The position numbers and the translations under genes are program-made. Positions 6,769-9,700 of a stretch of DNA of 64,000 nt are shown piece by piece. This DNA comes from Amphibalanus amphitrite (taxonomy: Eukaryota > Arthropoda > Thecostraca > Balanomorpha > Balanidae), in NCBI RefSeq assembly GCF_019059575.1, contig NW_024883072.1, positions 62,001 to 126,000 of the forward strand, in the 5' to 3' direction. How positions within the stretch are numbered: the stretch's first letter is position 1; each line of letters opens with the position of its first letter. The notes under the pieces are model-generated. The model made no database searches. It saw only the letters and a list, made by a program, of their open reading frames with translations, and was not told where the DNA came from.

Positions 6769-9700
6769 CCTGCCTCTGGTGCTGGGCGTGGCAGCGGGAG
6801 CCCTCATCACCCTCGTCTTGGTCATCATCATCTCCTGCTTCTACTGCAGCTGCTGCGCGGGCTACAAGAAGCGCAGCGAGGCCAAGAGAGGTCAGTGAAT
6901 CAGGGTCGCTCGGAGCCGCTTCTATTTCCGCCTTTACAAGGGCGACTTCAATGTGCGGCAGACGTTTAAGATCCACGCTCTCAAGAATAGCAATCGCCAG
7001 AGCTGTAAGAAGCTCATCCCGGGCTCACAAAATCCACTGATCGCACAGTTATTGACATCTGATAAATGTCTTCCGCATGTTCTGCATACTGACGTAATTG
7101 TGGAAGTGAAGCATAGACGATGCAAGGTCTCCGAACAGGATGTTTTCCGAGAGCAAATACTCCAGTGCTGAAGATAAACCGGTTCCAGCGACTAGACCGC
7201 AGTCCGCACTCCACGTATCGAGTACCGAACTGACAAATAAACCACGAGACCACACCGGTACTGCTTATTGGCTTTATACCCCGTAATCGACCACTTAAAT
7301 TGTCATGATTATTTTTGCATTTCTCGAGGGAAGGGGGATAGAGGAAGGAAGGACAAAGAGGAGAGAGGGAAGGAGGGAAAGTGAATGAGTGAGAAGAGAG
7401 TGAGAAAGAAAGTGAGGGTTTGAGAGGGAGAGAGAAAGAGAGAGGGAATAGAGAGTCCAACCACACTCTGTCTACCCGGCAGACCGGATGTACGCATCCA
7501 CGTCCAGCGGCGTGGCCAACATGTACAGCTGCTCAACAGCCTCTCTGGGGAGGCGCGACTTCAGGGAGGCGGGCCGCGACAGCCGCCGCGAGCAGCTCGA
7601 GGACATGCTGCACATCCAGGAGGTGATGGAGGTGGCCTCGGTGTCGCAGCGCAGCGCGCCCAGCCTGCCGCGCACCTTCCGCCACAACAGAGGTGGGTAA
7701 CGACGCCTTCCGCCACAACAGAGGTGGGTAACCGCACCTTCCGCCACAACAGAGGTGGGTAACAGCACCTTCCGCCACAACAGAGGTGGGTAACAACACC
7801 TTCCGCCACAACAGAGGTGGGTAACAGCACCTTCCGCCACAACAGAGGTGGGTAACAACACCTTCCGCCACAACAGAGGTGGGTAACAACACCTTCCGCG
7901 ACAACAGAGGTGGGTAACAGCGCCTTCCTCCGCCACAACGGATAACAGCACCTTCCGCCACAACAGAGGTGGGTAACAACACCTTCCGCCACAATAGAGG
8001 TGGGTAACAACGCCTTCCGCCACAACAGAGGTGGGTAACAACACCTTCCGCCACAACAGAGGTGGGTAACAGCGCCTTCCTCCGCCACAACGGGTAACAG
8101 CACCTTCCGCCACAACAGAGGTGGGTAACCACACCTTCCGCCACAACAGAGGTGGGTAACAACACCTTCGAGTTCGGCCACAACAGAGGTGGGTAGCTCA
8201 CCAACAGGTGCACTAACCAACGAAGGCATGCACAAGTTGTTGGCTGGGTTCAATTTCCTAGCGGCTCGAGATGTGGAAGATACATCATAGATATAGGCTG
8301 CGTGTATGCACGCGTGGCCACTGGTCAGATAGGCGTCAGGTAGGCCTTGCGGCACAGCATACATGCAGGCGTTCTTGCACTGCCATCTAGCGTCAGAAGC
8401 TGAAACTAAATCATTGCATCCGCTATCTTGAAGCCATTACTCCAGAATCTATGACTGATGATCATTGAGCCGCGGAAAGGATTTAACCCGCGCCCTGGTG
8501 GGGGGGGGGCTATTTTTTGCCCCCCCCTCCAGACTTTTCGATATATCTCCAGAACCGCTGCGCCGATCGTCACCAAACTTTCAGTACCCTCCCGGACATC
8601 AATTTTACACATTGTGACCAAAAATTTATCCAAAGGCTATGATAGGTTGGCCGGAAATGACGTCAGAGTGACGTCATGTTCTGCCGTTTTCGACCCAAAA
8701 AAGGGTTTCGCGGGCAGAGCTGTCAGGCCTATAGCTTTGCAAATACAGAAAAACGATAAAGACATATAAAAGCTGTAGAATTGACAGGGCTACAAAACTG
8801 CTATCTCGGATTTTTGAAATTTTTGGATTTTGACCCCCAAAAATCAAAAAATAGATTTTTTGATCATAATAGCCGAAAAATCCAAAAAGTTTTTTGAATT
8901 TCGAAAAAACCGGAATATATGTGATAGTACTTACCGCCTTCTATCTACATACCAAATTTGAGATCGATACCTCTTTTTTTGGCCAAGTTACAGCGAAAAA
9001 ACTGTTCAAAATTGATGACGTCAAATTTTCAAACTCAATTTTTTGCAATTCTAGACCTCGTAGCGCAAAACAAAGACCACCATTAGACTCCCCGTGACGA
9101 GCTGCATCGAATCAATACCCATTTTATGCAAAAATATCAACTTTGAAATTTGACCTTTTTTGACCTGACCTTGACCTGACCTCCACCAGAAAGTGGCCTA
9201 AGCCGTACCTGATAGTCTTATAACCAACACCATTGAGTTGGAAATGAAAAATTGGCCATAAAACATGCATCGCACAACCTTAGTACCTAAAGTTAGGTTC
9301 ATGTGACCTGACCTGTGACCCTTGGTGACCTGACCTGTGACCTGGTAATGTCAGTGACCTCTTATAGCAATATATGTACTAGGCAACTGACGCCCTATCG
9401 CTGATTCTCGACAAAATGCGTTTTCTTCGGTGTTATAGCGCATTCCCTAGATGACCCGTGAACGGTGAAACATTTCATCTTTGACCTGACCTGTGACGTC
9501 ATCGGTGACCCGGAGGTCAATGAAATTTGGTTTCCCTCGACAAATTTGACAGGCCTTTCGAACGCTGTTTGAATTTTGCGGATCCGTCCAGTAGTTTCGG
9601 AGATACGAGGGGGGGCAAAAAATAGCCCCCCCCCCCACCAGGTCGCGTTATAAACAGACCCCACCAGGGCGCGGGTTAAGGGGGACAAACTTTCTGTATG

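Follow-up and report, generated by a model that had tools for sequence, protein, structure and literature searches.

The gain of introns by tandem duplication of an exon segment bearing AGGT is said to have been proposed by Rogers in 1989, Venkatesh in 1999 and Zhuo in 2007, and as in that model, a tandem duplicate of an exonic AGGT makes extra splice sites at the locus analyzed here. In human genes, variable internal tandem repeats were described at exon-intron boundaries (De Grassi and Ciccarelli 2009, PMC2812944). As in our case, the minisatellites in the cited sections of that study straddle the exon-intron boundary and vary in copy number, and the human ones can alter splicing; the same sections deal with paralogues in segmental duplications and with transcripts for new introns. 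Unlike the human repeats as presented there, the intron at our locus predates the repeats, the donor ladder lies inside the intron, the variation was seen between two copies of the locus, and the arrangement recurs at conserved genes. Human UBC similarly has AGGT once per repeat unit (PMC10809524), and the cited part of that report states that repeat growth is tolerated because splicing can remove units. However, the UBC units are 228 nt long, in frame, and coding, whereas those described here are 31 nt long, out of frame, and followed by an immediate stop. Furthermore, the acceptor of the intron is located ~7.6 kb past the array, which was in contrast to UBC as reported in that part. Our searches of open-licence literature found no description of a genome in which the exon ends of conserved genes repeatedly carry donor ladders.

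We analyzed a window of 64 kb, that is, the whole stretch of DNA from 62001 to 126000 of contig C1575, in a genome assembly of 807.6 Mb in 2,644 contigs. One plus-strand gene was found in the window, with three exons joined in phase 1 (Table 1). The frame of the cytoplasmic-tail exon ends in AGA G, after which the donor GT occupies 7693-7694, and the introns flanking this exon are 592 bp and 8,140 bp (7693-15832) long. On C1575, an exon located ~7.7 kb upstream of the window matched Shisa_N (PF13908) at 48.1 bits, compared to a Pfam cut-off of 22. Judged from this match, the host gene is a predicted Shisa-family membrane protein, with the Shisa_N exon assigned to it by exon order. Proteins of the Shisa family span the membrane once and carry a PPxY motif in the tail that follows; the hydrophobic character of the first exon in the window and the PPIY of the last one were judged by eye. 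Pfam analysis of the joined window exons showed nothing above the cut-off, so the family identity comes from the upstream exon only. Similarly, a phmmer search of the joined exons against solved structures gave 0 matches, and the last exon had no relative among viral contigs.

Table 1. Features of the Shisa-family locus (positions in the window) and of two further loci. A slash stands before the donor GT.
Feature	Position	Strand	Remarks
Transmembrane exon of the Shisa-family gene (LPLVLGVAAGALITLVLVIIISCFYCSCCAGYKKRSEAKR)	6769..6890	+	Open frame; acceptor CCGCAG; donor AGAG/GTCAGT
Cytoplasmic-tail exon, 210 nt; its final 20 nt are the exonic part of repeat unit 1	7483..7692	+	Open frame; phase 1 on both sides
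Last coding exon (SLADSVGN...FYRATKM stop), PPIY motif	15833..16080	+	Phase 1 matches 7483-7692; acceptor TTTCCAG at 15826-15832
Tandem array, 17 units, 31-bp consensus CACCTTCCGCCACAACAG AG/GTGGGTAACAA; 15 units with AG/GTGGGT	7673..8199	+	Units cut at the conserved core
28-bp units, donor lost	7921..7948 and 8073-8100	+	
First donor GTGGGT, yields the conserved protein	7693..7698	+	Phase match to 15833; U1 duplex model -11.6 kcal/mol
Fourteen later donor copies	7724..8194	+	GT at 7724, 7755, 7786, 7817, 7848, 7879, 7910, 7969, 8000, 8031, 8062, 8121, 8152, 8189
In-frame TAA on read-through beyond the first donor (Arg-Gly-Gly-stop)	7698..7700	+	Identical bases in the C1299 copy
TFIIB exon, then array of mostly 47-bp units, 18 AGGTRAGT	L028, G000:C84:868900-870500	minus	
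Cryptochrome exon, then mostly 53-bp units, 14 AGGTRAGT	L027, G000:C46:1170800-1172500	minus	

Tandem Repeats Finder (TRF) reported a period of 31 bp with 16.2 copies at 7673-8169 and a higher-order period of 152 bp with 3.2 copies, the latter agreeing with a 152-bp duplication pointed out in the preliminary description of this DNA. When cut at the conserved core, 14 of the 17 units showed the 27-bp core with 0 or 1 mismatch, and a divergent final unit starts at 8163. A search of both strands of the 64-kb window located AGGTGGGT at 15 sites in the array and at a single site outside it. A chance origin of the array was rejected, as the expected mean of core matches in 100 shuffles was 0.00. As in a boundary minisatellite, the first unit of the array consists of the last 20 nt of the tail exon plus the donor. 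The preliminary description had claimed just this, a real exon end with its donor, and the array-free exon end in the paralogue described below bears it out. It had also depicted about 17 units as a ladder of identical donors; 17 units were indeed counted, but 15 of them, not 17, carry the donor. Furthermore, the predicted stop after Gly-Gly on reading past the first donor was located at 7698-7700. Although the 31-bp step shifts the frame, this first TAA stops the read-through whichever later donor is used. Thus, any later donor loses the product of the last exon (81 residues plus the junction residue), indicating that later-donor use would truncate the protein, as had been supposed.

A genome search with 7483-8200 as the query found four places: the locus itself, C1299, C2107, and C1517. 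The C1299 match showed 89% identity over 586 of the 718 bases. C2107 and C1517 hold a paralogue pair, hereafter paralogue B, matching 72 bases; the paralogue is present twice, and blocks of the two copies are 90.9-95.2% identical. In paralogue B, the exon ends identically (CAACAGAG/GT) and a phase-1 intron follows, with no array in either copy. Its exon, which ends in CGCTGCAACAGAG/GTCAGT, is homologous to the tail exon of the window, its intron is 325 bp long in C2107, and its last exon and that of the window gene are 46% identical. Because paralogue B has the exon end, donor, and phase of the intron without an array, all three predate the array, indicating that this exon end is its founder. 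The array as a new intron arising by tandem duplication was therefore rejected, since paralogue B has an intron at the same place and in the same phase without the repeats. In contrast to the intron-gain model, the intron has grown from its donor side and was not gained. A further Shisa paralogue was observed upstream on C1575, ~21 kb before the window, and near 125327 of C1299. Its tail exon has GGACACAGAGGCGAG at the matching place and reads ...HRGESEL, after which the two contigs differ, with TAG in one and a slightly longer open frame in the other.

Next, the window was compared with C1299. This contig was collinear with C1575 over 94 kb, with 37 chained blocks of 52 hits and 56.8 kb aligned, at a mean identity of 95.0% (blocks 85.7 to 100%). 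We read C1299 as the other haplotype of the locus, and the two copies of paralogue B likewise as haplotypes; alternatively, the region as a whole might have been duplicated recently. The C1299 array contained 12 units (an extra 20-nt remnant uncounted) compared to 17 in the window, and the earlier view that the array is still changing holds on this comparison. Ten of the C1299 units have an intact AG/GTGGGT, one has AG/GCGGGT, and one is without a donor. Their order differs from that in the window, and 43-bp compound units were observed that are absent from the window's array. The intron following the tail exon is 8,140 bp long in the window versus ~17.3 kb in C1299, the latter determined by hand. 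The coding sequences showed 4, 5, and 9 synonymous differences in the transmembrane, tail, and last exons, respectively, and 0 nonsynonymous differences in each; the neutral chance of 0 nonsynonymous among 18 differences is ~5e-12, calculated from site counts in the three exons. The protein is thus identical from both copies in the three exons compared, in line with the earlier assumption that the founder exon is genuine. These results show that the coding sequence is constrained and that the array turns over between the two copies of the locus. Separately, block 33382-42272 of the window was 99.9% identical between the two contigs, compared to only 85.7 to 97.8% in the chained blocks at 5.6-25.2 kb. 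Within the window, 33384-38570 contains two long adjoining open frames with retroelement-like features, which are presumably BEL/Pao-like.

We consider it probable that the array is a harmless exon-edge minisatellite, in which nearly every unit carries the exon end and the donor and the first donor is the one used. This reading draws on the anatomy of the array, the array-free paralogue, the turnover between copies, the constraint on the coding sequence, and the recurrence at other genes described below. A short stretch spanning the end of the old exon and its donor would have been duplicated in tandem, and the array would then have kept growing and shrinking into the intron. As its anatomy suggests, exchange between units would rebuild the same first unit, leaving the exon end and the first donor intact. 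Since nearly all units hold the last 20 nt of the exon plus the donor, the copy number is expected to be neutral for the protein. Regarding donor choice, which we infer together with this neutrality, the spliceosome would define an exon of 210 nt flanked by long introns, and would most likely do so by pairing its acceptor with the closest donor, which is the first one. Later donors would contribute minor noise leading to the Gly-Gly-stop truncation. From the third donor onward, truncated transcripts would probably be removed by nonsense-mediated decay, for which a 50-nt rule holds.

With flanking introns of 592 bp and 8.1 kb, the tail exon belongs to the exon-definition class. In the cited parts of a human study (PMC9225289), the upstream of two near-equal donors was favored when the flanking introns were long, and minigenes that carried two identical strong donors with flanks of 365 nt spliced exclusively at the upstream donor. 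Against such a preference, in the whole data set before strength matching the downstream site was preferred in ~60% of events, and when both donors were weakened, larger exons were mostly skipped (PMC9225289, same parts). With the strong unit donor found here, the human-derived rule predicts that the donor at 7693 would be used, although a competition between two sites differs from a ladder of 15. According to the U1 pairing model, the unit donor binds at -11.6 kcal/mol, compared to -7.4 for the donor of the transmembrane exon and -7.7 for that of paralogue B. Among 27 downstream units, the donor columns contained 4/233 substitutions compared to 19/538 in the rest of the unit (Fisher p 0.25). 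Selection that keeps or removes downstream donors was therefore not detected in these 27 units, which is not a proof of neutrality. An RNA fold that exposes the first donor alone was also considered and rejected, as the modelled probability that the nine bases are unpaired was at most 0.0004 at every donor in both copies. The preliminary description had suggested that copy number tunes the splice choice. This suggestion gained no support, since the human rule points to the first donor, the folding makes no distinction between donors, and the donor columns show no selection.

Among the other explanations, the units might be dual-specific sites: if splicing strayed to a later donor, whole units (62, 93, ... 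nt) would be removed in a further round, and recursive splicing would keep the array silent. Each unit has AG/GT, TAAC, and a short pyrimidine stretch before CAACAGAG/. AGGT occurs in 15 of the 17 units, a branch-like TAAC lies ~21 nt before CAACAG as judged by eye, and the pyrimidine fraction before the unit AG (0.62-0.69) is close to the 0.69 obtained for each of two acceptors of the gene itself, one of which, that of the transmembrane exon, was taken with an offset of one base. Tandem AGGT arrays with both roles are known in human UBC, according to the cited part of that report (PMC10809524). However, the third own acceptor is richer in pyrimidines (0.88), and purines lie directly before the AG of the unit. 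Furthermore, the intron at 7693-15832 ends at an acceptor outside the array, whereas an intron of this kind would have both ends in the array and a length that is a multiple of the unit. This explanation is thus considered unlikely.

The ladder could instead be a regulatory device, in which donors compete and the copy number sets the share of truncated protein or decay-bound transcript. A truncated protein from a later donor would be without the conserved 82-residue tail. Consistent with regulation, the modelled U1 pairing of the unit donor exceeds that of the transmembrane-exon donor and of paralogue B, the pairing stretch AGGTGGGTA was identical by eye in all 15 donors, and the immediate stop on read-through is found in both copies of the locus, between which the copy number differs. 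Nevertheless, exon-definition data favor the first donor in the cited parts of the human study (PMC9225289), the donors carry no signal of selection, and similar ladders occur in conserved genes such as TFIIB, for which one would not expect regulated truncation. We regard a regulatory ladder as quite improbable. Alternatively, the repeats could act uncut as an enhancer, with a row of U1-binding and GGG-containing sites just inside the intron that boosts recognition of the exon. In the cited portions of published work, exon inclusion can be rescued by modified U1 particles that bind past a donor, and in human PAH natural binding of U1 at such a downstream position matters; the modelled donor here forms nine base pairs with U1. 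However, the donor columns are no more conserved than the rest of the unit and paralogue B has one donor at this place, which makes an enhancer very doubtful. Tandem arrays are hard to assemble in general, but a misassembled array is scarcely credible here, as this exon end is followed by a different array in each of two separate contigs and the architecture is shared by other genes.

Ladders elsewhere in the genome were searched as runs of three AGGTRAGT motifs with 20-45 bases from one to the next, and the same pattern reversed was used as a control. The pattern occurred at 405 places (185 + 220), compared to 192 (79 + 113) for the reversed control, for which counts only were obtained. The single motif and its reversal occurred 19 times each in 265.7 kb. 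The Shisa donor GTGGGT is outside the AGGTRAGT pattern, so the class of ladders is wider than the pattern. The 100 places listed of the 405 were grouped by eye into 26 loci on contigs C1-C134, and all 26 flanks were read. Frames were picked by eye, and homology was analyzed for 22 of the 26 loci, leaving out L033, L034, L039, and L045; a match was accepted when above the Pfam cut-off or with a PDB E below 1e-3. Seven of the 22 ladders start at the end of an exon recognized by homology. By phmmer against PDB, these exons were of TFIIB and cryptochrome, for both of which Pfam gave 0 families; further ones were of transcription factor DP, chitin-binding peritrophin, a phosphate transporter, and Ric8. 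An excitatory amino acid transporter exon had a PDB match, and its Pfam score of 27.4 was just below the cut-off of 27.9. The other 15 of the 22 tested loci showed no accepted match. Several of them look coding, among them exons that may be FOXP-like, XPG-like, kinesin-like, and CMTR2-like. In PDB, no match was obtained for the first three of these, and the best E for the CMTR2-like exon was 0.59; the prokaryote library NCBIfam gave 0 for three of the exons so named.

In 21 of the 26 loci, 14 or more of the 20 nt that precede the first donor were copied in the best later unit, a level reached in 1 of 325 between-locus comparisons. The copy values for sequence 40-60 nt upstream were mostly 2-8 of 20 and at most 12. 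Without L033 and L046, 19 of 24 loci reached 14 of 20; among the seven recognized exons, five reached 14, and the peritrophin and transporter loci reached 13. At the TFIIB locus, the array fills ~970 bp of an intron of ~1.25 kb. When joined at the first donor, 98 residues of TFIIB aligned end to end without a gap to residues 45-142 of 29vf_M, a TFIIB chain of solved structure, and 17 further AGGTRAGT lie beyond the first donor in the fetched stretch. Judged from sequence, this alignment is the best evidence here that the genes would need splicing at the first donor. At the cryptochrome locus, the second unit is an exact copy of the last 33 nt of the exon. Two of the 26 loci seem to be of another kind. 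At L046 (G000:C59:698250-698980), a pyrimidine stretch with CAG and the exon start is repeated on the plus strand before a weakly WD40-like exon; this coding sequence, on the strand opposite to the ladder, scored 24 bits against a cut-off of 90, and the array seems to be at an acceptor. L033 appeared by eye to be a coding repeat on the other strand.

Extrapolating from 26 loci in 100 places to 405 gives ~105 loci, with haplotypes counted twice, if the remaining places resemble those listed. Ladders in several conserved genes could mean that exon ends are special beyond what neutrality explains. We propose only tentatively that minisatellites preferentially arise or persist at exon ends in this genome, with about a hundred ladder loci, even in genes as conserved as TFIIB, and that a process at the splice junction seeds or protects them. 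If so, this animal is a natural experiment in spliceosome choice among many near-identical donors. A repeat with a coding foot and a donor in nearly every unit provides a natural series for the choice among identical 5' sites. Different lengths on the two copies of the locus, together with the recurrence, allow an in vivo test of the exon-definition and intron-proximity rules. The locus also illustrates how an intron can lengthen at its donor end with no evident damage to the gene.

Other repeats were also observed in the window. Four ACCCCT/ACCACT hexamer arrays are located at 246-680, 1692-1986, 3001-3392, and 4405-4870, with starts 1.3-1.45 kb apart, and are perhaps parts of one repeated element. 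Two-copy tandem duplications were found at 33229-33545 (157 bp, 100%) and 43866-44408 (272 bp, 97%).
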